Positions 1,546 to 31,175 of a stretch of DNA of 34,248 nucleotides are shown one piece after another; position 1 is the stretch's first letter; each line of letters opens with the position of its first letter. Under the pieces are notes generated by a model, which had not been told where the DNA came from, ran no database searches, and was given only the letters and a program-made list of their open reading frames with translations. The DNA lies in assembly GCA_035536535.1 (NCBI GenBank), contig DATLNZ010000005.1:1-34248 (forward strand), given 5' to 3'. Source of the stretch: Actinomycetota bacterium. Lineage in GTDB: Bacteria; Actinomycetota; JAICYB01. Made by a program: the position numbers and the translations under genes.

Positions 1546-2637
1546 TCAGGCGACGACGTCCCAGGTGTCCCCGGACCGCAGTAGCCGGTTGAGATCGCCC
1601 GGGCCCTTCTGCCTGGCCTGGGCCACCTGGCGGTCGAGCAGTTCCTCGTAGGTGGGGCGGTCCACCTGCCGGAACATCCCGATGGGGGTCGGTCCGGTCG
1701 GGGTGTGGGACAGCCGCGACAGCGCGAACGCGTGCGCCGCGTCCAGAGCGCGTTCGTCGTGGATGACCAGCCGGTCCTCCCCGACCTCCTCGACGTCGAC
1801 GATTCTCAGCGTCCCGTCGTGGCTCGCCGTCACGCCGCGCTCGTTGTTCGGACCGAAGCGCACGGGCTTGCCGTGCTCCAGCCGGATCTGGTTGAGCTTT
1901 TTGGTGTCGCGTCCGGTCAGGGCGATGAAAGCGTCGTCGTTGAAGATGTTGCAGTTCTGGTAGATCTCGATGAACTTGGTCCCCTTGTGCTTTGACGCCT
2001 TGCGCAGGATCTCGGTCAGGTGCGCCCGGTCTGAGTCGATGGTCCGGGCGACAAACGAGCACTCGGCCCCCAGGGCCAGGGACACCGGGTTGAACGGGTA
2101 GTCGGCGGACCCGAACGGTGTCGACTTCGTCACCTTGCCCAGCTCTGAGGTCGGCGAGTACTGGCCCTTGGTGAGGCCGTAGATCTGGTTGTTGAACAGA
2201 AGGATCGTGAGGTTGACGTTTCGGCGCATCGCGTGGATCAGGTGGTTGCCGCCGATGGACAGGGCGTCGCCGTCGCCGGTCACGACCCACACGTCGAGGT
2301 TCGGCCTGGTGACGGAAAGCCCGGTGGCGATCGCGGGGGCCCTGCCGTGGATGGTGTGGAACCCGTAGGTCTCCATGTAGTACGGGAACCTCGAAGAGCA
2401 CCCTATGCCTGAGATGAAAACGGTGTTCTCACGGGGAATCCCCAGTTCCGGCATGAACGTCTGGACGGCCGCGAGCACCGCGTAGTCACCGCAGCCGGGG
2501 CACCACCTGACGTCCTGATCGGACGTGTAGTCCTTTTTGGTCAGCGGCAATGTGACCGCGCCCTGAGCGGTTACGGCGCGATCGCCGGTCCCGTCACCGA
2601 TGCCGGTCCCGTTGGGGTGTCCGTTGCCTTCGCTCAA
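1546..2637 (-). CDS. korB: 2-oxoacid:ferredoxin oxidoreductase, beta subunit
   Basis: This is the thiamine-pyrophosphate-binding subunit of a 2-oxoacid (probably 2-oxoglutarate) ferredoxin oxidoreductase, 363 aa. It decarboxylates the oxoacid and passes electrons through a [4Fe-4S] cluster to ferredoxin, giving the acyl-CoA. The sequence shows WCPGCGDYAVL (C46, C49), GIGCSS (C80) and a fourth cysteine at C193, the expected cluster ligands. The TPP/Mg motif is GDGDALSIGGNH (residues 121-132), followed by NNQIYGLTKGQ. The gene starts within the last bases of korA (4-base overlap), so the two are translationally coupled. About 30 Gly/Thr-rich residues precede the conserved domain. Substrate assignment to 2-oxoglutarate rather than pyruvate rests on family resemblance. 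Confidence 0.93.
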   Translation of the reverse strand: MSEGNGHPNGTGIGDGTGDRAVTAQGAVTLPLTKKDYTSDQDVRWCPGCGDYAVLAAVQTFMPELGIPRENTVFISGIGCSSRFPYYMETYGFHTIHGRAPAIATGLSVTRPNLDVWVVTGDGDALSIGGNHLIHAMRRNVNLTILLFNNQIYGLTKGQYSPTSELGKVTKSTPFGSADYPFNPVSLALGAECSFVARTIDSDRAHLTEILRKASKHKGTKFIEIYQNCNIFNDDAFIALTGRDTKKLNQIRLEHGKPVRFGPNNERGVTASHDGTLRIVDVEEVGEDRLVIHDERALDAAHAFALSRLSHTPTGPTPIGMFRQVDRPTYEELLDRQVAQARQKGPGDLNRLLRSGDTWDVVA

Positions 2638-4499
2638 CTCGCTCCTCCCAGGTGGTGCAGCAGCACCGACTCGAGCTCTCCAGCCTTAAAGGGGGCCCCG
2701 GTCACCTTCTGGTATCCGTGCGCGTCTACGAGGTACTCCGCGCGGACCAGCCGCAGGAGCTGTCCGAGGTTGATCTCGGGGATGACGACGCTGCTGTAGG
2801 AACGCAGGACGTCGCCCAGGTTCGCCGGGAACGGGTTCAGGTGGCGCAGGTGCAGCTGCGCCACCTTGTGGCCCTTGGTGCGGACGCGCCGGCAGGCCGC
2901 GCGGATAGGCCCGTAGGTGGAGCCCCACCCGAGCACGAGCACATCGGCGTCGGCGTCGCCGGTGACCTCGGCGGCGGGGATGTCGCGGGCGATCCCGGCG
3001 ATCTTGGCCGCCCGCAGCCGCACCATGCGGTCGTGGTTGTCCGGGTCGTAGCTGATGTCGCCGCGGCCGTCGGACTTCTCCAGGCCCCCGATCCGGTGCT
3101 CCAGTCCGGGGGTCCCCGGGATCGCCCAGGGCCGCGCGAGCGTCACGGGGTCGCGCAGAAAGGGCCAGAACTCCCCGGACTCGTGGTTGGACGCGGTCGT
3201 GAACTCGAAGACCCGGCTGAGGTCGGGCAGCTCGTCCACGTCCGGCAGCTTCCACGGCTCGGCCCCCGTGGCCAGAAACGCGTCGGACAGCACGATGACC
3301 GGGGTCCGGTACTTCAGGGCGATCCTCGCCGCCTCCAGGACGATGTCGAAGCAGTCCGAGGGACTGCGGGGGGCCAGGATCGGCAGCGGCGACTCGCCGT
3401 GGCGTCCGTACATCGCCAGCATCAGGTCGGCCTGCTCGGTCTTGGTCGGCATGCCGGTGGACGGCCCGGCCCGCTGGATGTCGAACACCAGCATGGGCAG
3501 CTCCACGGAGATGCCGAGGCTGATCGTCTCAGCTTTCAGGTCCAGGCCCGGGCCGGAGGTGATCGTTACCCCCAGCGACCCCCCGAACGATGCGCCCAGC
3601 GCCGCGCCGGCGGCCGAGATCTCGTCTTCGGCCTGCATCGTCTTGATGCCGAACGATTTGTGCCTGGACAGCTCGTGGAGCACATCGGAAGCCGGGGTGA
3701 TCGGGTAGCCGGCGAGGAAGACCTGCACCCCTGACCGCTCCCCCGCGGCGACCAGCCCGTAGGCCAGCGCCGTGTTCCCGGTGACGTTGCGGTACGTGCC
3801 CGGCGCCAGCTTCGCGGGCTTGATCGAGTAGCTGTGGGTGAAGACCTCTGTCGTCTCGCCGAAGGCGTAGCCGGCGCGGAACGCCTTGACGTTGGCCTCG
3901 GCGATCTCCGGACGCGACCCGAACTTGCGGGACACCCAGTCCTCGGTGCCCTCGACCGGGCGCGAGAACATCCAGGACAGAAGGCCCAGGGCGAACATGT
4001 TCTTCGAGCGCAGGGCCTCCTTCTGGCTGAGGCCCTTGATCCCCTCGAGGGCGCCCAGGGTGAGCTTGTTGAGGGGCACCTCGAAGAGCTGGTAGTCCTG
4101 CAGGGTCCCGTCCGTCAGCGGGTTCGACGTGTACTCCGCCTTGGCGAGGTTGCGGTCTTCGAAAGCGTCGGTGTTGGCGATGACGATGCCGCCCGGCAGA
4201 AGGTCGCCCAGGTTGGTCTTGAGTGCCGCCGGGTTCATCGCGACCAGCACATTCGGCGAGTCGCCGGGAGTGAGAATGTCGTGGTCCGCGAAGTGCAGCT
4301 GAAATCCCGACACACCGAACAGAGTCCCGGCCGGTGCGCGGATCTCGGCCGGGAAGTCGGGCAGCGTGGCGAGGTCGTTGCCCAGGACCGCGGTCGCGTT
4401 GGTAAAGCGGTCTCCCGTCACCTGCATTCCGTCGCCGGAGTCTCCGGCGAGGCGGATGACGACCTTGTCGATCTCCTGGACGGTCTTGGGGGCGGCCAT
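2634..4499 (-). CDS. korA: 2-oxoacid:ferredoxin oxidoreductase, fused gamma-alpha subunit
   Basis: This is the large subunit of the Kor complex, 621 aa. The N-terminal ~190 residues are the gamma-type domain (VIRLAGDSGDGMQVTG, then FPAEIRAPAGTLFGVSGFQ). After a linker comes the alpha domain with GYPITPASDVLHEL, QAEDEISAAGAALGASF and SGPGLDLKAE. The last ~120 residues are the C-terminal alpha/II domain (VLGWGSTYGPI). Gamma-alpha fusion is usual for actinobacterial Kor. The start is the ATG at 4499 with CAGGAG six bases upstream; an in-frame ATG 14 codons earlier lacks such a site. The complex is cytoplasmic, oxygen-tolerant in several actinobacteria, and supplies succinyl-CoA or runs in reverse for CO2 fixation. 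Confidence 0.93.
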   Translation of the reverse strand: MAAPKTVQEIDKVVIRLAGDSGDGMQVTGDRFTNATAVLGNDLATLPDFPAEIRAPAGTLFGVSGFQLHFADHDILTPGDSPNVLVAMNPAALKTNLGDLLPGGIVIANTDAFEDRNLAKAEYTSNPLTDGTLQDYQLFEVPLNKLTLGALEGIKGLSQKEALRSKNMFALGLLSWMFSRPVEGTEDWVSRKFGSRPEIAEANVKAFRAGYAFGETTEVFTHSYSIKPAKLAPGTYRNVTGNTALAYGLVAAGERSGVQVFLAGYPITPASDVLHELSRHKSFGIKTMQAEDEISAAGAALGASFGGSLGVTITSGPGLDLKAETISLGISVELPMLVFDIQRAGPSTGMPTKTEQADLMLAMYGRHGESPLPILAPRSPSDCFDIVLEAARIALKYRTPVIVLSDAFLATGAEPWKLPDVDELPDLSRVFEFTTASNHESGEFWPFLRDPVTLARPWAIPGTPGLEHRIGGLEKSDGRGDISYDPDNHDRMVRLRAAKIAGIARDIPAAEVTGDADADVLVLGWGSTYGPIRAACRRVRTKGHKVAQLHLRHLNPFPANLGDVLRSYSSVVIPEINLGQLLRLVRAEYLVDAHGYQKVTGAPFKAGELESVLLHHLGGAS

Positions 4500-4555
4500 G
4501 CGGGCTCCTGACGGGGAGAACGGGGGCCGGGCACACTGCAAGAGCCCGTGACACC

Positions 4556-6245: not shown

Positions 6246-7490
6246 ATGACCCTGCAGCGCATCGTGTGCCTGCTAGCCGCGCTGGCGATCGCCACCACGG
6301 CCAGCGCTACGGCGGCCTCGCGCCGGCAGCCCCCCGCTCTCCTGGACCGGCCGACGGCCGCGGGGACGACGGCAGCCCAGAGCAGCAGCCTCGAGCACGT
6401 CGCGCAGGTCGAATACTCCGGAGGCAGTGACTTCGAGTTCGCCACGCTCGCCGGTCGCCGCTACGCCTTCGCGGGCAGGCTCAACGCGCCCGTGCAGGTG
6501 ATCGACATCTCCGTCCCCCATCAACCCAGGGTCGTGGCGCAGGTGCCGTGCTGGCTGAACCAGAACGACGTCCAGATCAGGGGAACGACTCTTGTCATGG
6601 CGGCCGACAGCCGTGGGACCTGCGTCATGTCCGACGGATCAAGCAGGCAGTTCATAGGCTTCGCCACCGCGGACGTCTCCGACCCCCTCAACCCGAGGGT
6701 GATCGGCATCGCCAACGTGCCACGGGGGGCGCACAACGTGACCCTGCACCCCGGGGGCCGATACGTCTACGTGTCCAACGCCGACTTGAGCGGGGTCAAG
6801 GCGTACATCCACATCTGGGACATCGCCGACCCGGCCCAGCCGAGGCTGGTCCAGAACTGGTTCTACATGCCGGGCACGCAGCCCCACGACATCACCTTCA
6901 GCGCGGATGGGCGGCGCGCGTACGTGGCCGCGATAGGACACACGGACATCGTCAACACCGAGGATCCGGAGCGCCCGGTGCTGGTGACGACGCTCGCACA
7001 CCCCGAAATCGAGATCTCCCACCAGGCCGACCCGACCCCCGACGGCAGGTACCTGCTGGTCTCCGACGAGGTCGGCGGCGGGGTCGTGGGCCCGGCGTGC
7101 CCGGGAGGCGGAATTCACGTTTACGACATCTCCGTGGAGCAGGCGCCGGTGAAGGTGGGAGTCTTCTGGGCGGATCCGACCTACGTGCGGGAGGGCGTAC
7201 GGCAGGGATGCACGTCGCACGTGTTCCGGATCAACCCCGACGGCAGAACGCTGGCCGTCGCCTGGTACACCGCGGGGGTCCACGTCATCGACTTCGGCGA
7301 CCTGCTGCGCGTCGGTGCCGCCGGAACGGGCGCCGCCACGGGGGCCGGAGCGCGCACCATCGCCTCCCACAAGCCCGCCAACGCCGACACTTGGGCGGCG
7401 AAGATGTGGCCGGAGGCGTTTCCCGGCTACGTGTTCGCAAACGACATGAGCCGCGGCTTTGACGTCTACAGGCTCACACCCGCCGCCTAG
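6246..7490 (+). CDS. Secreted LVIVD-repeat beta-propeller protein
   Basis: This 414-aa exported protein is made of LVIVD-type repeats, predicted to fold as a beta-propeller. A signal peptide covers residues 1-24 (ending TASATA). Blade strands of the form VQVIDISVPHQPRVV, IHIWDIADPAQPRLV and IHVYDISVEQAPVKV recur. Four successive blades open with a histidine: AHNVTL (H163), PHDITF (H214), SHQADP (H259) and SHVFRI (H325), so these side chains may line the central channel. No catalytic motif is recognised. AAAGG stands seven bases before the ATG. It is a divergent relative of the tandem pair at 20797-23471 but lacks their conserved C-terminal tail. It is followed after five bases by hsp20, although a functional link is not evident. 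Confidence 0.78.
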   Translation: MTLQRIVCLLAALAIATTASATAASRRQPPALLDRPTAAGTTAAQSSSLEHVAQVEYSGGSDFEFATLAGRRYAFAGRLNAPVQVIDISVPHQPRVVAQVPCWLNQNDVQIRGTTLVMAADSRGTCVMSDGSSRQFIGFATADVSDPLNPRVIGIANVPRGAHNVTLHPGGRYVYVSNADLSGVKAYIHIWDIADPAQPRLVQNWFYMPGTQPHDITFSADGRRAYVAAIGHTDIVNTEDPERPVLVTTLAHPEIEISHQADPTPDGRYLLVSDEVGGGVVGPACPGGGIHVYDISVEQAPVKVGVFWADPTYVREGVRQGCTSHVFRINPDGRTLAVAWYTAGVHVIDFGDLLRVGAAGTGAATGAGARTIASHKPANADTWAAKMWPEAFPGYVFANDMSRGFDVYRLTPAA

Positions 7491-19730: not shown

Positions 19731-20800
19731 ACCCGCGGCGCGTGCTGGCCATCGCCCTCAAGGACCTCAAGGACGTCGTGCGCGACGTCCGGATCCTGCC
19801 GTTGATCCTGGCGACCCTCATCCCCGCCCTGCTGTTCCGGGCCGATCAGACGCCGGTGGCATCGGTCGCCTACGCGGCTGCCGACGAGACGAAGCTGCCC
19901 GACACGCTCAGGCAGGCTACCCGCGGAATCAAGCTGAAGTTCGTGAAGGCCGAGGATGCCTCGGAGGTGAAGTCGCTGGTCCGCCGGGACAAGGCGGTCG
20001 TGGGGTTTGCCACCGGCGCCGGCTTCGACGCCCAGCTCGCCGCCGGGCAGGCTCCCGAGCTGGTGATTGTCACGCGCGAGGACTCCGGTTTCCGGGCGTC
20101 GGCGCTCGTGACCGCCTTGGACGCCACGGTCCGCGCCCTGGCGGGGCAGCGGCCGGCGGCAACCATCCGTCCCGAGGTCATCCCGTCGAAGGAGACGGGC
20201 CCGGACCGCATCTTCCGTGAGCTGGGGGTCGAGACGTTCATGCGCGTGGCTTTCACGATCCTGCTCGTGCTCATGGTCGCCCTGAGCATCGTGCCAACCA
20301 GCGTCACGGAGGAGTCCGAGCGCAAGACCCTCGACGCCCTGCTGCTCGCGGCCGCCCGCCGGGAGGTGATCGCGGCCAAGGCGATGGTAGGTCTCGTCCT
20401 TACGGCGGTGGGAGTGCCGGTGCTGGCGGCGGTGTCGGGGCTGAAACCGGCACAACCTTTCGCCTATTTCGCCACGTGCGCCTTGTTGGCGGTCTCGATG
20501 GTGGGCGTCGGACTTCTAGTAGGCGGATTGATGAAGTCGCAGGCCGCTTTGAACGCATGGAGCCCCTTCCTCGTGCTGCCGTTGTCGGGGACGGCCTTCG
20601 CGGCGGCGTTCGACCTGCCGGCGCTGGTGCGGCCGGTCATCCAGGCGCTGCCCACCAGCCACGCGATGCGGCTTGCGTCCAACTTCGCCAGCGGCAAGCA
20701 GGTGTTCGGGGGCCAGGCACTCTCGCTGGCCGTGCTGGCGGTTTGGGCGGTCGGTGCGTACGTGGTGCTGGGCCTGCGCCTTCGGACCCGCGAGACTTAG
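19727..20800 (+). CDS. ABC-2 type transporter permease
   Basis: This 357-aa permease pairs with the ATPase just upstream (4-base overlap). One N-terminal helix (about residues 22-35) is followed by a large extracytoplasmic domain of ~145 residues. Five or six helices then cover the C-terminal half, including FMRVAFTILLVLMVALSIVPTS, VLTAVGVPVLAAVSG, LLAVSMVGVGLLVGG and the final LAVLAVWAVGAYVVLGL. The cytoplasmic loop ESERKTLDALLLAAARREVIAAK is the coupling-helix segment typical of ABC-2 permeases. Its stop codon overlaps the stop of the convergent LVIVD gene. The substrate could be a drug, lipid or ion; nothing in the sequence decides. Confidence 0.9.
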   Translation: MNPRRVLAIALKDLKDVVRDVRILPLILATLIPALLFRADQTPVASVAYAAADETKLPDTLRQATRGIKLKFVKAEDASEVKSLVRRDKAVVGFATGAGFDAQLAAGQAPELVIVTREDSGFRASALVTALDATVRALAGQRPAATIRPEVIPSKETGPDRIFRELGVETFMRVAFTILLVLMVALSIVPTSVTEESERKTLDALLLAAARREVIAAKAMVGLVLTAVGVPVLAAVSGLKPAQPFAYFATCALLAVSMVGVGLLVGGLMKSQAALNAWSPFLVLPLSGTAFAAAFDLPALVRPVIQALPTSHAMRLASNFASGKQVFGGQALSLAVLAVWAVGAYVVLGLRLRTRET

Positions 20801-22137
20801 AGCGGGGTGATCACGCAGAACAGCGTGTTCTCCATTTTCCGCTCCCTGGTCCGGACCGGGCGATCCGGCAGGACGGGCGGCATAAGCCTGGACGTCATGT
20901 CCACGCGGGGGCCGGTCAGCTTCGCGGCCGGGAGGGTGCCCTCCGAGACTCCGGTCACCGACAGGACTTCCATGCCGAGGAACTTGTCGTTGACGTAGAT
21001 GCGGTCCCGGTACCAGTGGGCCGTGTAGGCCAGGCCGTCGTCCGGCATGTAGGAAGCAACCAGCTCGGGGAGCAGCGGGTTCGTGATGTCGTGAACCGTG
21101 GTGCCTCCGGTGAACCAGGAGGAGACGACCAGGTTCGTTCCCGGCACGAAGTTGTAGTTGTGCGCCGTGCACCAAGTGCCGACGTACTCCACGTAGTTGC
21201 CGACTCCCGAGCGGGTGGCCGGCGGGGCGATCCGGCCCGCCAGGACCGGAGCCTCCGGCACCCGGATGTCGTAGATCCACAGGGACCCATACAAGCTGGT
21301 GCCGGTCGTGCAGTCGTGGATGCCGAAGGCCTCATCGTTGACGACCAGTTTGTCTCCCGATGGGCTGACGACCGCGTTGTGGGGGAACTGGATGGCCGGG
21401 TTCATGATCCGCCCGATCGTGACTGGGTTCACCGGGTTGCTGACGTCCCAGGTCTGGATCTCGCCGGCGCCCGCACAGAACGCCAGCTGGCGCTGCTGCG
21501 TGAGGTGGAACGACATGTCGTGGCAGCCTGTGACGCTCGGCAGGAATCTCGACGCAACGAACGGCCGCGACGGATCCGAGACGTCCACCACCGTCTGCCA
21601 CCCGTTGTCGTTGGCGAGCCCGCCCGGGGAGACGTAGATGAAGTCCCCCGTTGGGTGCACGGTCAGGGTGTGGGCGCTGGGGATCGCGAGCTGGGAGATG
21701 ACCCGGGGCTGCCGCGGGTTGCTGACGTCAGCCAGGTAGATCCCGTTGCCGCCCCTGGCCGCGAAGTTGCAGCGGCTGCGGTGGTGCGAGATGGCCAGCA
21801 GGCCCGGCCTGACCACCATGACGTCGTTGTCGTTGCCGGGGCACGACAGCTCCCCGACCTTCGTGAACTCCCCGTCGGAGACGTCGAAGATCAGAACGCC
21901 GCCCTGGTTGTCGTACCCTCGTTCGTCCCTGTAGATCCGGCCGTTGATGTACCCGGCATAGACATAGTCGCCATCGAAGGTGATCTCGGAGCCACCCACG
22001 TACGGGTACGACGCCGTGCGGGTCACGTTGGGGGTCTTGACCGGCTCGGCGGCACCGGCCGACATCTGACCGGCCGCAGCTAGCACCGCGACCAGAGCCG
22101 CTGCGGCCCTGGCTGCCGCCGTCCGCGTGCGCCTCAC
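20797..22137 (-). CDS. Secreted LVIVD-repeat beta-propeller, tandem copy 2
   Basis: This 446-aa exported protein is closely related to the gene immediately upstream. A signal peptide covers about residues 1-30 (ending AGA). Repeats such as GVLIFDVSDGEFTKVG, IQTWDVSNPVNPVTIG and LWIYDIRVPEAPVLAG mark propeller blades. Histidine-led blade starts (SAHTLT, GCHDMSF, FPHNAVV, TAHNYNF) and conserved Cys (CPGNDND, RSRCN, AFCAG, GTWCT) recur. The last ~40 residues, ending ENTLFCVITPL, are almost identical in both copies. The GTG start overlaps the upstream stop by four bases. Its own stop overlaps the convergent permease stop. Function unknown. Confidence 0.82.
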   Translation of the reverse strand: MRRTRTAAARAAAALVAVLAAAGQMSAGAAEPVKTPNVTRTASYPYVGGSEITFDGDYVYAGYINGRIYRDERGYDNQGGVLIFDVSDGEFTKVGELSCPGNDNDVMVVRPGLLAISHHRSRCNFAARGGNGIYLADVSNPRQPRVISQLAIPSAHTLTVHPTGDFIYVSPGGLANDNGWQTVVDVSDPSRPFVASRFLPSVTGCHDMSFHLTQQRQLAFCAGAGEIQTWDVSNPVNPVTIGRIMNPAIQFPHNAVVSPSGDKLVVNDEAFGIHDCTTGTSLYGSLWIYDIRVPEAPVLAGRIAPPATRSGVGNYVEYVGTWCTAHNYNFVPGTNLVVSSWFTGGTTVHDITNPLLPELVASYMPDDGLAYTAHWYRDRIYVNDKFLGMEVLSVTGVSEGTLPAAKLTGPRVDMTSRLMPPVLPDRPVRTRERKMENTLFCVITPL

Positions 22138-23471
22138 AGAGGCGTGATCACGCAGAACAGCGTGTTCTCCATCTTCCGCTCCTTCGTCCGGACCGGGCGG
22201 TCCGGCAGGACGGGCGGCATCAGCCGGGACGTCATATCCACGCGGGGGCCGGTCAGCTTGGCCGCCGGCAGCGTCCCCTCCGACACCCCGTCGATCGACA
22301 GGACCTCCATGCCGCGAAGCATGTCGTTGACGTAGACCCTGTCCTTGTTCCAGTGGGCGGTGTAGGCAATGCCGTCGTCCGGCTTGTAGGAGGCCACGAG
22401 CACCGGCAGCAGCGGGTCGGTGATGTCGTGGACGGTGGTGCCGCCGGTGAACCAGCCTGTAACGACCAGGTTCGTACCCGGGACGAAGTTGTAGTTGTGG
22501 GCCGAGCACCAGGACTCGGTCCAGCCGCCGTACCAGGGCAGGTCCGACCGGCTCGTGGATGGGGCGATCCTTCCAGCGAGGACCGGAGCCTCGGGGATCC
22601 TGATGTCGTAGATCCACAGGGAGCCAAACAGGCTCGTGCCCGTCTTGCACTCGTGGACCCCGAAGGCCTCGTCGTCCACGACGAGCTTGTCGCCGGACGG
22701 GCTGACGACCGCATTGTGGGGGAACTGGATTGCGGGGTTGACCGTGTGCCCGATCGTCACGGGCGCGATCGGGTTGCTCACGTCCCAGGTCTGGATCTCG
22801 CCGGCTCCCGCGCAGAACGCAAGCTGCCGGTCACCGGTCGTGAGGAAAGACATGTCGTGGCAGCCGGCCTGGTTGGGCTTGAACCGCGCCACCTGTCTCG
22901 GGTTCGCCGGGTCCCGGACGTCAACGATGGACTGGTATCCCGCGTCGGTGGCCAGGCCGCCGGGCGAGACGTAGACGTAGTCCCCGGACGGATGCGCGGT
23001 CAGGGTGTGGGCGCTGTAGGTCTCCGTGCCCCCAACGACCCGGGGGTTTGCCGGGTCGGAGACGTCCACGAGGTAGATCCCGTCGTGGGCGGTCGCCGGG
23101 TTGCACCGCGTCGCGTGGTGGGAGATCGCCAGGAGGCCGGGGCGGACCAGCGCCACGTCGTTGTCGGTTCCGGGACAGTAAAGCTGTCCCGCGAGCCGGA
23201 AGTCGCCCCCGGACGTGTCAAAGATGAAGACGCCGCCCTGGTCGGGCACTTCCCCCCGGTGCGTACGGCCGTTGGTCTGTCCGGCGTAGACGAAGTCGCC
23301 GTCGAAGGCGATCTCACCGCCGCCCCAGTAGGGCTTGTGCGCGGTGCGGGTGACGTTCGGAGTCTTCTCGGGCTCCCCGGCGTAGGCGGGAACGTTGCCG
23401 GCAAGCATGAGCACGGCAAGCGCTGCCGCAACGCCCCCCAGGCGCGCGTCATCCCACCGGCTTCGGGTCAT
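22134..23471 (-). CDS. Secreted LVIVD-repeat beta-propeller, tandem copy 1
   Basis: This 445-aa protein is the first of a tandem pair and matches copy 2 along its whole length. The signal peptide ends near AYA-GE (about residue 31). Blades include GVFIFDTSGGDFRLAG, IYLVDVSDPANPRVVG, IQTWDVSNPIAPVTIG and LWIYDIRIPEAPVLAG. The same His-led blade starts and cysteines are kept (SAHTLT, GCHDMSF, FPHNAVV, SAHNYNF, YTAHW). Best conserved is the C-terminus PRVDMTSRLMPPVLPDRPVR. The ATG is at 23471; GGGGAG lies about 12 bases upstream, rather far. The pair probably forms one transcript from the 147-base divergent region. LVIVD proteins have no settled biochemical role. Confidence 0.83.
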   Translation of the reverse strand: MTRSRWDDARLGGVAAALAVLMLAGNVPAYAGEPEKTPNVTRTAHKPYWGGGEIAFDGDFVYAGQTNGRTHRGEVPDQGGVFIFDTSGGDFRLAGQLYCPGTDNDVALVRPGLLAISHHATRCNPATAHDGIYLVDVSDPANPRVVGGTETYSAHTLTAHPSGDYVYVSPGGLATDAGYQSIVDVRDPANPRQVARFKPNQAGCHDMSFLTTGDRQLAFCAGAGEIQTWDVSNPIAPVTIGHTVNPAIQFPHNAVVSPSGDKLVVDDEAFGVHECKTGTSLFGSLWIYDIRIPEAPVLAGRIAPSTSRSDLPWYGGWTESWCSAHNYNFVPGTNLVVTGWFTGGTTVHDITDPLLPVLVASYKPDDGIAYTAHWNKDRVYVNDMLRGMEVLSIDGVSEGTLPAAKLTGPRVDMTSRLMPPVLPDRPVRTKERKMENTLFCVITPL

Positions 23472-24906: not shown

Positions 24907-25293
24907 TCAGGCCTCCGGGGGGCCCGGCGCCTCGTGGAGTTCGACCATGCGGCCGTCGGGGTCGGTGAGGTAGGCGCTGCGACCCCAGTCGTAGTCCTGG
25001 GGTCCCACGACCTCCACTCCCGCCTCCCGCATGCGCGCGCATGCAGCCTCCAGGTCCTCCACCGCGAAGGCGACGTGGTCGCGCGAACCGGGGTCCAGTG
25101 GGTCGGAGGGGTCCGGTTCGTAGGCTTCGTGGACAAGCAGCTTCACGTCCCCGACCTGGAACTCCGTGTGCCCGGGCCCGGCGCTGACCGGGGAGACCTG
25201 CAGCAGGCGCTCGTAGAACCCGGCCGCGGCGACGACGTCCGAGGAGAACCTGGCCACCTCCGTCACCCGCGGGCCGTCAGGCGCCGCAGGCAC
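24907..25293 (-). CDS. VOC (glyoxalase/bleomycin-resistance) family protein
   Basis: This 128-aa protein is a single vicinal-oxygen-chelate unit with two beta-alpha-beta-beta-beta modules: TEVARFSSDVVAAAGFYERLL, FQVGDVKLLVHEAYEP, RDHVAFAVEDLEAACARMREAG and SAYLTDPDGRMVELHEAP. The glutamate in MVELHE and the His in RDHVAFAV sit where metal ligands usually do. Members include glyoxalases, dioxygenases and antibiotic-binding proteins; the substrate is unknown. The GTG start at 25293 overlaps the end of lipA by 17 bases; a GTG at 25266 avoids the overlap and also preserves the whole domain. It is the last gene of the lpdA-lipA run. Confidence 0.82.
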   Translation of the reverse strand: MPAAPDGPRVTEVARFSSDVVAAAGFYERLLQVSPVSAGPGHTEFQVGDVKLLVHEAYEPDPSDPLDPGSRDHVAFAVEDLEAACARMREAGVEVVGPQDYDWGRSAYLTDPDGRMVELHEAPGPPEA

Positions 25294-26194
25294 GTCCGGC
25301 CTGTTCCTGCTCGCGGGCGTGGTAGGACGACCGAACCAGCGGTCCGGACTCGACGTGAGCGAACCCCAGCCCCCGGGCGAACTCCCCCAGCTCGGCGAAC
25401 TCGTCCGGGTCCACGTAGCGGTCCACCTGGGGGTGCGCCCGCGAGGGGGACAGGTACTGCCCCATCGTCACCAGGTCCACCTGCGCGTCGCGCAGCTCCA
25501 CCAGCGAGTCCCGGACCTCGCCGATGGTCTCGCCCATCCCGAGGATCATTCCGGCCTTGGTGACCTGCTGGGGGCGGAAGATCTTGGCCAGGCGCAGGAC
25601 CTCGAGCGACCTGTCGTAGTCAAACCCCTTGCGGACCGTCCGGTGCAGGCGTCGGACCGTCTCAAGATTGTGCGCGAACACGTCCGGCTCGGCCTCCACG
25701 ACGGCGCGGACGGCGTGCGGCATGGCGCGGAAGTCGGGGGTCAGGACCTCGACGCCGCAGGCTGGGTTGTGCCGCCGGATGGCCCGGATCGTCTCGGCCC
25801 AGATGGACGCCCCTCCGTCTAGACGGATGTCATCGCGGGCGACGCCGGTCACGACCGCGTACTTCAGCCCCACGGCGGCAACCGCCTTGGCAACACGCTC
25901 GGGCTCCTGCTCGTCGAGCTCGGGGGGGCGGCCGGTGATGATGTCGCAGAACGTGCATCGCCGGGTGCAGACGTTGCCAAGGATCAGGAAGGTCGCCGTC
26001 CGCTGCTCCCAGCACTCGTAGATGTTGGGGCAGGGTCCGGACTCCTCGCAGACGGTGTGCAGGCCGTGCTCGCGCATAAGGCGCTTGAGATCCAGGTAGT
26101 TGGGCCCGGTGCGGACCTTGACCTTCAGCCACTCCGGCTTGGGCTGGGGGCCGAGGGCACGTCCCTCGCGCAGGCGGGCCCGGGTGCCGGACAT
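25277..26194 (-). CDS. lipA: Lipoyl synthase
   Basis: This ~305-aa radical-SAM enzyme inserts two sulfurs into octanoyl-lysine on E2 or GcvH to make lipoyl groups. The radical-SAM motif is C76-x3-C80-x2-C83 (CTRRCTFC). The auxiliary-cluster motif is C49-x5-C55-x5-C61 (CEESGPCPNIYEC); the usual spacing is Cx4Cx5C, so one residue is inserted between the first two cysteines. The RSSYHA serine that completes the auxiliary cluster is present near the C-terminus. I chose the ATG at 26194 because it gives the family length; an ATG at 26221 is nearly as good, and neither has a clear ribosome site. It lies downstream of lipB, its pathway partner, after 115 bases. Confidence 0.93.
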   Translation of the reverse strand: MSGTRARLREGRALGPQPKPEWLKVKVRTGPNYLDLKRLMREHGLHTVCEESGPCPNIYECWEQRTATFLILGNVCTRRCTFCDIITGRPPELDEQEPERVAKAVAAVGLKYAVVTGVARDDIRLDGGASIWAETIRAIRRHNPACGVEVLTPDFRAMPHAVRAVVEAEPDVFAHNLETVRRLHRTVRKGFDYDRSLEVLRLAKIFRPQQVTKAGMILGMGETIGEVRDSLVELRDAQVDLVTMGQYLSPSRAHPQVDRYVDPDEFAELGEFARGLGFAHVESGPLVRSSYHAREQEQAGRACGA

Positions 26195-26309
26195 CCTGCC
26201 GGCGCCGGACGCGCACCCCATGCCGCCGCGGGGCGCATCGGTGGCGGGAGCACCGGCCGAGGAAACGTCGAGCGGCCGTCTCAAGCGCGCACCTGGAGAG
26301 CGGGCCTGG

Positions 26310-26978
26310 TCAAGCGGATACCTCCAGAGCCGAGCGTGGACGGAGCTGGTACACGAAGACGTCTGCGAACGAAGCGGCCACCGCGTCTCCGACCGCGTTC
26401 GCATCCGGTGCGGCCCCCGTCAGCTCCTGAATCGACGTCACCCCGCGGTCGGTGATCCCGCAGGGGACGATCCCGCCGAAGTAAGAGAGGTCGGTGGACA
26501 CGTTGAGCGCGTAGCCGTGCTTTGTGACGCCGCGGCTGACCTTCACGCCGATCGCGCCGATCTTCCGGGTGCCGATCCAGACCCCCGACCTGCCCTGCAC
26601 CCGCTCGCCGGTGACACCGAACCCGGCCAGGGCATCGATCAGCACCGCCTCCAGGTCACGGACGTAGCGCTCCAGGTCGGGCGTCGGGCCGAGGTGGACG
26701 ATCGGGTAGCCGACCAGCTGTCCGGGGCCGTGGTAGGTGACCATGCCGCCGCGGTCCGCCTCGTGGACCTCCACTCCCCGCTCCGCGAGCGTCGCCTCGT
26801 CCCACAGGACGTCGCCTCGCGTGCCCCGGCGTCCGATCGTGAACACGCTGGAGTGCTCCAGCTGCAGCAGCGTGTCCGCAGCCTCGTCTCGCTGGCGCGA
26901 TTCGTGGAGGCGCGATTGGAGGCCGAGGGCGTCTGCGTAGGGGACGGTCCCGAGCCAGACGGCGTCGAGGCTGCGCAC
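26310..26978 (-). CDS. lipB: Lipoyl(octanoyl) transferase
   Basis: This 222-aa enzyme moves octanoate from acyl carrier protein to the target lysine of lipoyl domains, the step before LipA. The family signature RGGMVTYHGPGQLVGYPIVHL-type stretch is at about residues 76-96, the catalytic Lys is in RKIGAIGVKV (K139), and the catalytic Cys in GIVPCGIT (C173). The start is a GTG that shares one base with the E2 stop (TAGTG), so lipB is coupled to the gene whose product it modifies. Length is typical and no key residue is missing. Confidence 0.94.
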   Translation of the reverse strand: MRSLDAVWLGTVPYADALGLQSRLHESRQRDEAADTLLQLEHSSVFTIGRRGTRGDVLWDEATLAERGVEVHEADRGGMVTYHGPGQLVGYPIVHLGPTPDLERYVRDLEAVLIDALAGFGVTGERVQGRSGVWIGTRKIGAIGVKVSRGVTKHGYALNVSTDLSYFGGIVPCGITDRGVTSIQELTGAAPDANAVGDAVAASFADVFVYQLRPRSALEVSA

Positions 26979-28498
26979 TACGGCTGCACCACCTCGCGCG
27001 CGAAGTCCCACGTCTCGAGGTTCTCCTTCAGACGGGCCAGGAACCTCATCGCGTCGGAGCCGTCCAGCAGGCGGTGGTCCCAGGACATCGACAAAAACGT
27101 CCGGTGGCGAATCGCGATCATCCCGTCCACCACGGCCACGCGCTGCTCCACGGCCTCCGTGGACAGGATCGCCACGTTGGGCTGGTTGATCACGGGCACC
27201 GACAGGTAGGACCCGAACGGCCCGGGGTTGGTGATCGTGAACGTGGATCCCCCCACGTCGTCGGGGGCCAGGGACTTGTTGCGCGCCTTGTTCGCGATGT
27301 CGGCGATAGCCCTGGAGATCCCGACCACCGTCATCGTCTCGGCCCCCTTGACCACAGGGACGATCAGCCCGTAGTCGGTGGCCACCGCGACGCCGACGTT
27401 CACGTAGTGGTGCAGCGTCGCCTCGGTAAGGTCGGCGCTGACGCTCGCGTTGACCATCGGGACGTGTGCCAGCGCGTCCACGCAGGCCCGGACGATAAAC
27501 GGCAGGTACGTCAGGGACATCCCCTCGCGCTTTTTGAACTCCGGGTTCACCTGGGCACGCAGCCGGGCGATGTTCTCCATGTCCACCTCGACGGCGTTCC
27601 AGGCGCGCGCCGATGTCTGCAGCGACTTGACCATGTGCTCGGCGATCCGCTTGCGGATGTGCGTGAGCGGCTGCACCTCGTCGCGCTCGCCGGCGGCCTG
27701 CCGGACCGCGGGCGGCGACTGCTGTCCGGGGCGTCCCGGTTGGGCCGCGGGCGCCTGGGGCGCAGCCGGCGGCGCCGCGGGGGCCGAGCCGCGTCCGTCC
27801 GCGTGGTCGATGACGTCCTGCTTGGTGATGCGGCCTCCGGGTCCGGACCCCCGGACCTGGGACAGGTCCACGTCGTGCTCGCGCGCCAGTCGCCGGACGA
27901 GCGGTGACAGCTGCCCGCCCGGACGGCCCTCGCCGCTCCTGGTGGGGGGACCGCCGCGCGAAGGCGAGCTGACAGCCGGGGCCCGGGGCGGGTTCGACCC
28001 GGGCGACTCCGGGTGGGGCTCGCCGCTGGGGTCGGTGTCCGTGGACTCCGACTGCTCGACGGGGTCGGATCCCGCTCCCGTGGACTGTGCGGCGGGGACC
28101 CCGGACGGCGCAGCGGCCTTCTGCCCGTCGCCACTGGCGGCCACCTCGCGATCCGTTCCGCCCGGCGAGGCCTGCGCGGCCTCAGAGCCGCCTTCGCTGG
28201 ACTCCGAGCCCGCCTCCTCGCTGGTGGTGGTACCGGCCTCGGCACCACCGGCGGCCTCACCGCCTTCGTCCACCTCGCAGATGGTGGTTCCCACCTCCAC
28301 GGAGGCCCCCTCCTCGACGAGGATCTTGGTAAGGACGCCGGCCACGGGCGACGGAATTTCTGTGTCCACCTTGTCGGTGGACACCTCGACCAGCGCGTCG
28401 TCTGCGTCAACCTTGTCGCCTTCGGACTTGAGCCACTTCAGGATCGTGCCCTCGACGACGGACTCTCCCATCTGGGGCATACGGACCGCAGTCGCCAT
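26978..28498 (-). CDS. 2-oxoacid dehydrogenase E2 (dihydrolipoyl acyltransferase)
   Basis: This 506-aa core subunit of a 2-oxoacid dehydrogenase complex carries acyl groups on lipoate and transfers them to CoA. One lipoyl domain (residues 1-80) has its modified Lys in STDKVD (K43). A ~120-residue Ser/Gly/Glu/Pro-rich linker follows, then the E1/E3-binding domain (LSPLVRRLAREHDVDLSQV), a second linker, and the catalytic domain ending in SWDHRLLDG (H475, D479). Sequence style (MPQMGESVVEGTI) favours a 2-oxoglutarate (SucB) or branched-chain type over pyruvate. AAGGGGG lies about 10 bases upstream. It follows lpdA after 14 bases. No E1 gene is in the window. Confidence 0.9.
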   Translation of the reverse strand: MATAVRMPQMGESVVEGTILKWLKSEGDKVDADDALVEVSTDKVDTEIPSPVAGVLTKILVEEGASVEVGTTICEVDEGGEAAGGAEAGTTTSEEAGSESSEGGSEAAQASPGGTDREVAASGDGQKAAAPSGVPAAQSTGAGSDPVEQSESTDTDPSGEPHPESPGSNPPRAPAVSSPSRGGPPTRSGEGRPGGQLSPLVRRLAREHDVDLSQVRGSGPGGRITKQDVIDHADGRGSAPAAPPAAPQAPAAQPGRPGQQSPPAVRQAAGERDEVQPLTHIRKRIAEHMVKSLQTSARAWNAVEVDMENIARLRAQVNPEFKKREGMSLTYLPFIVRACVDALAHVPMVNASVSADLTEATLHHYVNVGVAVATDYGLIVPVVKGAETMTVVGISRAIADIANKARNKSLAPDDVGGSTFTITNPGPFGSYLSVPVINQPNVAILSTEAVEQRVAVVDGMIAIRHRTFLSMSWDHRLLDGSDAMRFLARLKENLETWDFAREVVQP

Positions 28499-28512
28499 TT
28501 GCCAAAACCCCC

Positions 28513-29895
28513 TTAGCCGTGCAGCGGACGTCCAATGGCGGCCAGCGCGGCTTCGCCGACCACCTCCGAAAGAGTCGGGTGCGGGTGGACCAGCCCGGCC
28601 AGCTCCGACGGGTAGGCCTCCCACCCGACGGCGAGCAGGATCTCGGACAAAAGCTCGGTGACGCGCGGGCCGATGATGTGCAGGCCCACGATGCGCCCGC
28701 CCTTCTCGGCCACGATCTTGGCGAACCCTCGCGGCTGGTGAAGGATCTGCGCCTTCGCGATGCCGGTGAAACCGTGCTTGTGCACCTCCACGTCCATCCC
28801 CCGCTCCCGCGCCGCCTCCTCCGTGAGGCCGACGGAGGCGATCTCGGGGTTGCAGTAGGTGGCGTGGGGGACGTCCCGGTCGTAGTCGAGCATCACGGGG
28901 GTGCCGCCGGCGATTCGCTCGGCGACGGAGAACCCCTGCGCAAAGGCGACGTGGGCGAATTGCGGCGACATGGCCACGGCGTCGCCGACCGCCCACACCC
29001 CGTCACCGGCGAGGTAGGTGTCGTCGGTGAGGATGTAGCCGCGCTCGGACTTGATCCCCCATGAATCGAGGTCCAGGCCGTCGGTGGACGGTCCCCGGCC
29101 TACGGCGACCAGGACCTGCTCCACGTCCACGCTGGCGGTCTTGTCCCCCTTGCTGAAGGTGACCTTCAGCAGGTCCTTGGAGCGGTCGATGTCCTGGACC
29201 TTGGCTCCAGCATGGACGGCGATCCCGCGCTTGCCGAACGACGCCGTCAGCTCCTTGGACACGTCCGCATCCTCAAGCGGGACGATGCGGGGCAGCGCCT
29301 CGATGACGGTGACGTCCACACCGAAGGAGCGGTAGACGGACGCGAACTCCACGCCGACCGCGCCGGCGCCGATGATCGCGATGCTGCGGGGCAGCGTCTC
29401 GCGAGTCAGGGCGTGGTCGGAGGTGATGACACGCTCGCCATCCGGCTCCATGCCCGGGAAGTACCTGGCGTAGGAGCCGACGGCCAGGATCACTTGTCGG
29501 CCCGTGACGTCCTTGTCGCCGGCCTTGATCGTCCCCCGGGGGCCGAGCTTGCCGTCCGCGTTGACGAGGTCGATCTTGCGCGCCTTGATCAGCGACGACA
29601 GTCCGGAGTGGAGCTTTTTGATGGGCTCGGACTTGGACTTCTGAACCGCCGCCCAGTCGAACTCGGGCTCGTTGACCGTGATCCCGTAGGTCTTGGCGTC
29701 GCGGATCGTGTCCAGCACCTCGGCCGCATGCAGGAGACCCTTGGTGGGGATGCATCCCCGGTGCAGGCAGGTCCCGCCGACCTTGTCCCGCTCCACGATC
29801 GCCACCTTCTGGCCCAGCAGGGCCGCGCGCAGAGCCGCGGCGTAGCCACCGGGACCCCCACCGAGGACGACGACGTCGTAAGACCCGTTGCTCAT
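28513..29895 (-). CDS. lpdA: Dihydrolipoyl dehydrogenase (E3)
   Basis: This 460-aa FAD flavoprotein reoxidises dihydrolipoate on E2 and reduces NAD+. The FAD motif is LGGGPGGYAAALRAA (11-25). The redox-active disulphide is C43/C48 in GGTCLHRGCIPTKG. The NAD-binding motif is IIGAGAVGVEFASVYRSFG, a second FAD motif is YLAGDGVWAVGD, and the C-terminal HPHPTLSEVVGEAAL holds the catalytic His-Glu pair. The ATG at 29895 has AAGGAG about nine bases upstream; an in-frame ATG 22 codons earlier would overlap the neighbouring gene. It leads the lpdA-E2-lipB-lipA operon. Confidence 0.95.
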   Translation of the reverse strand: MSNGSYDVVVLGGGPGGYAAALRAALLGQKVAIVERDKVGGTCLHRGCIPTKGLLHAAEVLDTIRDAKTYGITVNEPEFDWAAVQKSKSEPIKKLHSGLSSLIKARKIDLVNADGKLGPRGTIKAGDKDVTGRQVILAVGSYARYFPGMEPDGERVITSDHALTRETLPRSIAIIGAGAVGVEFASVYRSFGVDVTVIEALPRIVPLEDADVSKELTASFGKRGIAVHAGAKVQDIDRSKDLLKVTFSKGDKTASVDVEQVLVAVGRGPSTDGLDLDSWGIKSERGYILTDDTYLAGDGVWAVGDAVAMSPQFAHVAFAQGFSVAERIAGGTPVMLDYDRDVPHATYCNPEIASVGLTEEAARERGMDVEVHKHGFTGIAKAQILHQPRGFAKIVAEKGGRIVGLHIIGPRVTELLSEILLAVGWEAYPSELAGLVHPHPTLSEVVGEAALAAIGRPLHG

Positions 29896-29924
29896 CGGCT
29901 CAGCTCTCCTTGGTCGGCGAGAGA

Positions 29925-31175
29925 TCAGTCTATGGCCGCCGGGGGGGCCTGCTTCAGCCACAGGGACACGTGCGCAGGCTGGACCGTCTCGCTCGTCGCC
30001 CGGACCAGCTCCCGGGTGAGGGTGTCCAGGTCGATCTGGTCGCGCAGCCGGGAGCCGAAAGCCTCGATCGTCCGGGTGGCGTCGTAGGTCCGGCGGTAGA
30101 AGCGCCGGTTGACGAAAGCGCGGATCCGAGACAGGGCGGGGCGGAACATCGCCGCCACCGCCAGGGTGGACCCGGCCACCGCGAGATCAGACCTGCCGGT
30201 GAACGGAGCCGTCAGACGCTGAAGCAGGATCACGGCCCCGGCATAGAACCCCGCCATCGAGAGGGTCAGGATCGTGTAGACGACCGCGCGGTTGATCACC
30301 CGGTCGATGTCGTACAGCCGGTAGCGCAGGATCGCGAAGCCCACCGCCACCGGGATCCCTGCAAACGAGATCGTGACGAGGTCCTGGGCGACCTGCATGA
30401 ACACCGGAGTGGGCCCCTCCCCCATGAGCATCGCGCCCGTTCCGGCGAAACCGAACAGCACCGCGACGAAAACCGCCGCCGTCGCCACCCACTTGAGCTG
30501 CTGGCGCTGCTCCGAAGGCGCACGGCGGTAGCGGACGACCAGGGAAGCCATCGAAGCGATGAACGTGACCGGCATGAGCAGCGCAAGAACGCCCAGTACG
30601 GGCATCAGCGGCCGGATCGCGTCGATCGCGTATGGGTTCTCGATCGCCACGTCGGCCAGGGTGCCGGGCGTGAGCGCCTCCGTTAGGGACATAGTCAGGA
30701 TGGAGAACGCGGGAACCCACCCGAACCAGCGCCAGCGGTGCGACGGAAGCCTGCCATCGGGGAACAGCAGGACGAGATAGGACCCGATCAGCCCCGTCCA
30801 CAAGGCCCAAAGCCAGTTCGAGAGCCACGCCGCCGTGACGGCGCCGGGCAAGGCTCCTCGCTTCACGTCGAAGCCGTACACCGCCCACGCCGTGGCCGCG
30901 AGGTTGACGCCGATCGACAGGCCGATGAGCAGACAGATCCACCCGATGGCGTTCGACGGCTTCCGGGTGGCGACGAGCAGCCCGACCACCGGAAAGGCCA
31001 CGAAGGCCAGGAGCCATACGAACTCGGCCCTGCCCGTCCCCCACTCCGATGTGGTCTGGCGCGAGCCGACCGACACCATGACGACGACCGTCGCAGCGTA
31101 GGTGGCCAGGGTGGCCGCCGCCGTGGCCCAGGCCACCGCGGCCTTCCATCCACCTCGTGTGCTCGCGGCCCGCAT
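29925..31175 (-). CDS. Stand-alone membrane sensor module without kinase domain
   Basis: This 416-aa protein has about ten predicted membrane helices, for example AVAWATAAATLATYAATVVVMV near the start, LLAFVAFPVVGLLVATR, TGLIGSYLVLLFPDG and AVFVAVLFGFAGTGAML. The tail (FVNRRFYRRTYDATRTIEAF, then LVRATSETVQPAHVSLWLK) is the segment that in many actinobacterial and Chloroflexi sensor histidine kinases joins the membrane part to the GAF or kinase part. Here the protein stops at that point, with no H-box or ATPase domain. It may pair with a separate protein or sense something else. It ends 29 bases before the lpdA start. No clear ribosome site precedes the ATG. Confidence 0.72.
   Translation of the reverse strand: MRAASTRGGWKAAVAWATAAATLATYAATVVVMVSVGSRQTTSEWGTGRAEFVWLLAFVAFPVVGLLVATRKPSNAIGWICLLIGLSIGVNLAATAWAVYGFDVKRGALPGAVTAAWLSNWLWALWTGLIGSYLVLLFPDGRLPSHRWRWFGWVPAFSILTMSLTEALTPGTLADVAIENPYAIDAIRPLMPVLGVLALLMPVTFIASMASLVVRYRRAPSEQRQQLKWVATAAVFVAVLFGFAGTGAMLMGEGPTPVFMQVAQDLVTISFAGIPVAVGFAILRYRLYDIDRVINRAVVYTILTLSMAGFYAGAVILLQRLTAPFTGRSDLAVAGSTLAVAAMFRPALSRIRAFVNRRFYRRTYDATRTIEAFGSRLRDQIDLDTLTRELVRATSETVQPAHVSLWLKQAPPAAID

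Follow-up and report, generated by a model that had tools for sequence, protein, structure and literature searches.

The window analysed here, a stretch of 34,248 nucleotides, encodes three proteins that, to judge from sequence and predicted models, are probably exported propeller metalloenzymes with a site homologous to the binuclear centre of Sb-PTE, the haloalkylphosphorus hydrolase of Sphingobium. Taken together, homology, residue identity, and residue position are best explained by a metal site like that of Sb-PTE. We regard metal binding by the window propellers as highly probable and metal-dependent catalysis, argued partly by analogy, as likely; phosphoester hydrolysis in particular is a tentative suggestion, also drawn by analogy. 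The most likely role would be that of a secreted metal-dependent hydrolase. The title of a 2016 paper (listed among the references of PMC11656708) gives Sb-PTE of Sphingobium sp. TCM1 seven propeller blades and a binuclear metal centre. This kind of propeller is already known from Sb-PTE, and the proteins described below would be a divergent, widespread branch of it.

The first of the three proteins, P0001, has 414 residues and is encoded on the forward strand at positions 6246 to 7490 (6246-7487 for the residues themselves), as read from the open reading frame and its translation. Its signal-peptide-like N-terminus is followed by a seven-bladed propeller (approximately residues 46-413), based on an AF2 model and a profile match to the PDB. 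The model, for which the input was an alignment of 28 sequences, has a mean pLDDT of 84.6 and a pTM of 0.83. Many blocks of the core reach at least 96, and the block around Glu275 has a lower mean (73). DSSP applied to the model gives seven inner strands, starting near residues 60, 109, 164, 213, 257, 324, and 382. All three window proteins are probably exported. A periplasmic location, as put forward in the first-pass annotation, is doubtful because the nearest named relatives are actinobacterial.

The same annotation had singled out four histidines of P0001, each opening a blade, and all are present in the frame: H163 (GAHNVTL), H214 (QPHDITF), H259 (ISHQADP), and H325 (TSHVFRI). In beta-propellers, the central channel is lined by the first strand of each blade, and the argument from this topology that the four residues should sit on inner strands, at the channel, holds in the model of P0001. 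Blades 3-6 have predicted innermost strands at 164-167, 213-218, 257-263, and 324-329; each histidine lies at, or no more than two residues from, the point where its strand begins, and placement on outer strands or loops is not seen. As a rough indication, since the slot was chosen post hoc, the binomial probability that at least four of seven blades carry a histidine in a three-residue slot at the inner-strand start is ∼0.003, taking histidine as 3.5% of residues 46-414.

Free variation of these histidines among homologues is likewise not observed. The alignment comprised 58 rows, 53 after removal of five near-identical duplicates, and the denominators below exclude gapped or truncated rows; it includes loci from Bacteroidota and Gemmatimonadota as well as two Sphingomonadales proteins. 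His163 (6732-6734; this and the following codons are all on the forward strand) is found in 51 of 51 rows, His214 (6885-6887) in 52 of 52, His259 (7020-7022) in 52 of 53, and His325 (7218-7220) in all 53. The sole row without His259 in its column (L006) has a histidine one residue earlier (LHN). Conservation extends beyond the four residues named in advance, to Glu275 (7068-7070; 53/53), the final residue of the second strand in blade 5, to Asp108 (6567-6569; 46/49), just before the inner strand of blade 2 (109-112), and to Asp215 (49/52). The other nine of the 13 histidines in P0001 are conserved in at most 32 of 53 rows, so the four named beforehand are the four most conserved, an outcome with one chance in 715. 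The ring histidines and the glutamate are near-invariant while overall identity among homologues falls to 22%-30%.

Among solved structures, the profile search found a single homologue, haloalkylphosphorus hydrolase. A profile of 31 homologues from the phylum, searched against all PDB sequences, matched 5hrm (E = 2.2e-21) and 5ioj (E = 4.9e-21), both haloalkylphosphorus hydrolase, and the remaining two matches had E values of 0.67 and 0.72. With P0001 alone as the query, the same enzyme was recovered at E = 1.7e-9, and the third match was a periplasmic gluconolactonase (E = 1.5e-5) over one blade region. For the full Sb-PTE sequence, we used an almost identical copy carried by a plasmid of Sphingobium xenophagum, in which the letters E201, H258, H317, H389, E407, H475, H545, C411, and C443 all agree. 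The 31-sequence profile aligns with this copy over 308 columns in hhalign (E = 4.6e-17), and in this one profile alignment H163 pairs with H258, H214 with H317, H259 with H389, E275 with E407, and H325 with H475. We take the metal ligands of Sb-PTE to be E201, H258, H389, E407, and H475, and we assume a role for H317 as well. Asp108 falls two columns from Glu201 and is its probable counterpart. The correspondence is not perfect: His545 in blade 7 of Sb-PTE has no clear counterpart in P0001, blade 7 of which carries Trp383 (placed by MAFFT on Trp531 of Sb-PTE), and when P0002 leads the profile, the pairs of blades 3 and 4 are retained but the alignment then slips by one blade, bringing H325 onto His545.

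Structural comparison gives the same first match. Foldseek with the P0001 model returned 5hrm first (E = 6.1e-14; next entry 7.0e-10), and 5hrm was also the top match in VIA, both for P0001 (Z 33.9, 340 residues, 24% identity) and for P0002 (Z 32.6, 357 residues, 17% identity). The alignment of the predicted P0001 model runs full circle, with residues 40-414 against 88-575. The fold itself proves little, because WD40 propellers approximately tie with Sb-PTE by Z for P0001 (33.7 vs. 33.9). The window proteins thus resemble Sb-PTE as their best and only strong sequence relative among solved structures, as the top structural match of the P0001 and P0002 models, in having seven blades, and in the alignment of five ring residues and of Cys285 with Cys411; they differ from it in their low identity (∼24% over the 340 structurally aligned residues of P0001) and in long insertions. 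The window proteins are not known to share the phosphotriesterase activity of Sb-PTE. The metal-site idea of the first-pass annotation is therefore well supported, by the inner-strand starts, the near-invariance, and the alignment to the histidines and glutamate of Sb-PTE, but the right comparison is with Sb-PTE rather than with the selenium-binding protein and methanethiol oxidase propellers to which it had been likened.

Two cysteine pairs accompany the ring. Cys285 (7098-7100, forward strand) and Cys322 (7209-7211, forward strand) are predicted disulfide partners and covary: of 58 rows, 50 have the two together, six lack the two, and two have just one, the latter being Sb-PTE and its Novosphingobium relative. 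Cys102 and Cys126 occur together in 44 of 53 untruncated rows and are both missing from the other nine. The two pairs are likely, from this covariation, to form two disulfides. The disulfide of Sb-PTE is presumably Cys411-Cys443; Cys411 shares the column of Cys285, and Cys443 and Cys322 fall in different columns.

The other two proteins of the window are products of a tandem gene pair on the reverse strand and are propellers of the same superfamily. P0002 (22,134-23,471; 445 amino acids) has ring residues D105, H155, H205, H252, E268, and H325, and P0003/P0005 (20,797-22,137; 446 amino acids from a GTG start) has D101, H152, H202, H249, E265, and H322 in the numbering of P0003 (add four for P0005). 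The motifs SAHTLT, GCHDMSF, FPHNAVV, and AHNYNF, previously noted along with fixed cysteines, were found in both frames, together with the common cysteines. The GTG start of the second gene (22,137-22,135) overlaps the stop of the first as GTGA (22,134-22,137, reverse strand), so the two are probably translationally coupled. Both proteins close with a near-identical tail of ∼45 residues (encoded at 20,797-20,931 and 22,134-22,268, reverse strand), which in P0002 (residues 402-445) is modelled with very low confidence.

Of 198 genomes from the phylum, 20 encode a relative of P0001 at E ≤ 1e-10, including the source genome, which also encodes a second tandem propeller pair (62%-63% identical to P0001) and one distant paralogue. 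The second pair (L002 and L003, on contig 132 of the source genome; also L067) is followed by laminin-G-type and SpoIIE-type proteins. In a tree of 62 rows, P0001 and P0002/P0003 belong to different clades, each with support. The branch leading to Sb-PTE is long and its placement unsure, and the origin of Sb-PTE cannot be read from this tree for that reason.

For gene context, we collected 105 neighbouring proteins, drawn from all but one of 21 loci (at L044, the crude gene caller, based on G+C at third positions, returned no propeller). When 103 of these proteins were scanned together against Pfam (the other two are a SpoIIE-type protein and an aminotransferase), no family among the best 25 of 137 occurred in more than three, in a scan to which partners outside Pfam are invisible. 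The P0001-type protein seems to work alone, given that the neighbours at 20 loci have no common family beyond three of 103 proteins. Elsewhere in the window are a pair of genes with matches to domains of 2-oxoacid:ferredoxin oxidoreductase (POR, POR_N, PFOR_II, and TPP_enzyme_C; 1546-4541, reverse strand), a glucose/sorbosone dehydrogenase-type protein (PF07995; 14,282-15,571, forward strand), and a cluster of lipoyl synthase-like, 2-oxoacid dehydrogenase acyltransferase, and pyridine nucleotide-disulfide oxidoreductase genes (25,277-29,961, reverse strand).

The label "LVIVD," under which all three proteins had been placed, fits only in part. P0002 (27.7 bits) and P0003 (31 bits) pass the Pfam LVIVD cut-off (PF08309; 20.2 bits), but P0001 gives no match to this model at E ≤ 1. 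All three match the choice-of-anchor B model (TIGR04312) weakly, at 30.0, 37.1, and 27.3 bits, each below the 100-bit cut-off. "LVIVD propeller" is thus a loose name for the window proteins, because P0001 misses the Pfam family and the choice-of-anchor B scores are below cut-off. As a control, we sampled LVIVD proteins from other genomes, taking one open reading frame per locus by a DVSDP-type motif, which yielded 26 frames from 34 loci (L085-L118); three of them (L116, L117, and L118) had been picked up with the choice-of-anchor B model rather than with PF08309, and the proteins were grouped by eye. The ring is complete in 11 of the 26, eight of them in register (L100, L106, L107, L110, L113, L116, L117, and L118) and three with a one-column shift of His259 and in some also of the glutamate (L098, L108, and L109). 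It is partial in three (L103, L111, and L114) and absent from 12 (L085, L086, L087, L088, L089, L090, L092, L093, L094, L095, L099, and L105), so that it is nearly all-or-none in this sample. In L111 and L114, HENRPG replaces the motif at the blade 6 histidine, so that the ring is partly altered, possibly as a further variant. The 12 ringless proteins are mostly arrays of similar blades, and one of them (L085) has E at the Glu275 column. LVIVD proteins built of near-identical repeats (12 of the 26 sampled) thus lack the histidine ring, unlike the window proteins. Because so many control proteins are without it, the ring marks one propeller subfamily rather than LVIVD proteins in general, and it is not needed for the fold.

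These results bear on the possibility that the metal serves stability or ligand binding rather than catalysis, as it might in an adhesin at the cell surface or in a binding protein. Two papers place LVIVD proteins at the surface and give their function as unknown (PMC10210494; PMC2447325), and the lack of a conserved gene neighbourhood in the Pfam scan of 20 loci would fit such a role. However, the histidines and glutamate at the predicted channel mouth remain near-invariant at 22%-30% identity, the homologous enzyme Sb-PTE has the same residues, and tandem-repeat LVIVD propellers do without the ring, so the fold does not need it. We consider a purely non-catalytic role unlikely.

Somewhat less probable still, in our judgement, is that the window proteins hold a single redox metal such as copper and are oxidases working in the manner of the selenium-binding protein and methanethiol oxidase propellers. 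SELENBP1 has copper-dependent thiol oxidase activity, and its model is a propeller of seven blades whose cavity contains His, Asp, and Glu (PMC10362175); the window proteins do show weak sub-threshold matches to the models for such proteins. Their best scores are nevertheless far under the cut-offs (16.2 of 34 bits for SBP56, PF05694; 11.9 of 650 bits for MtoX, NF052453), and a profile of seven actinobacterial SBP56 proteins (from seven of 12 loci in the phylum) aligns over 74 columns only, out of register. Moreover, the conserved and copper-binding residues of SBP56 (HH, HxxH, D, and E) appear to differ from the P0001 ring in order and in blades, whereas Sb-PTE fits at all five ring positions. 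On the strength of the low scores and the short, out-of-register alignment, we rejected the selenium-binding/methanethiol oxidase family as the closest relative. What is shared with it is a seven-bladed propeller and, in its case, a cavity metal site of histidines and acids (PMC10362175); the parallel is one of general design, without backing from alignment.

It is very improbable that there is no metal at all, with the histidines structural or hydrogen-bonding elements of the blade motif and the Sb-PTE match a reflection of blade ancestry only, for although the fold by Z does not part Sb-PTE from WD40 proteins, the histidines are confined to blades 3-6, Glu275 is invariant yet lies elsewhere, and 12 of 26 relatives keep the blade motif without these histidines.

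Under the preferred explanation, the seven-bladed propeller would bind one or two divalent metal ions where its central channel opens, in a site like that of Sb-PTE. The predicted ligands in P0001 are His163, His214, His259, Glu275, and His325 (plus Asp108), with counterparts in P0002 and P0003, in a site that would be homologous to the binuclear centre of the Sphingobium enzyme. An ester substrate could enter via the funnel above the metal site and, by analogy, be attacked by a metal-activated water or hydroxide, the ester most likely being a phosphoester. What the analysis shows is homology in sequence with Sb-PTE, conservation of the residues that align, and a position of these residues where inner strands begin in a predicted model; metal binding, the number and kind of ions, hydrolysis, the substrate class, and secretion are inferred.

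The link between these proteins and Sb-PTE may be absent from annotation because the Sb-PTE copy scores 16.2 bits against Pfam LVIVD, under the 20.2-bit cut-off, and matches no NCBIfam model at E ≤ 0.01. Our literature search, which left subscription journals mostly outside its scope, found no paper joining LVIVD or choice-of-anchor B with Sb-PTE, nor LVIVD together with phosphotriesterase or haloalkylphosphorus. Copies of Sb-PTE that are 95%-99% identical over the queried stretch occur on Sphingobium and Sphingopyxis plasmids (L034 and four further records), where they are annotated merely as hypothetical protein. In L034 (S. xenophagum plasmid p3), an IS6100 transposase lies close to the copy.

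Phosphotriesterases that attack flame retardants are of recent appearance, and to our knowledge the family of origin of Sb-PTE has not been settled. We tentatively propose that secreted metallohydrolases with seven propeller blades and the Sb-PTE metal site may make up a family, both large and old, that was the source of the flame-retardant phosphotriesterase. Such a family could span Actinomycetota, Bacteroidota, Gemmatimonadota, and Pseudomonadota, hidden under "LVIVD" and "choice-of-anchor" names. LVIVD-labelled proteins would divide into two sets, only one of which has a predicted active site. For a conserved family of secreted propellers, the link to Sb-PTE provides a testable activity and concrete residues to mutate, and it suggests a place to look for more enzymes that degrade organophosphates.
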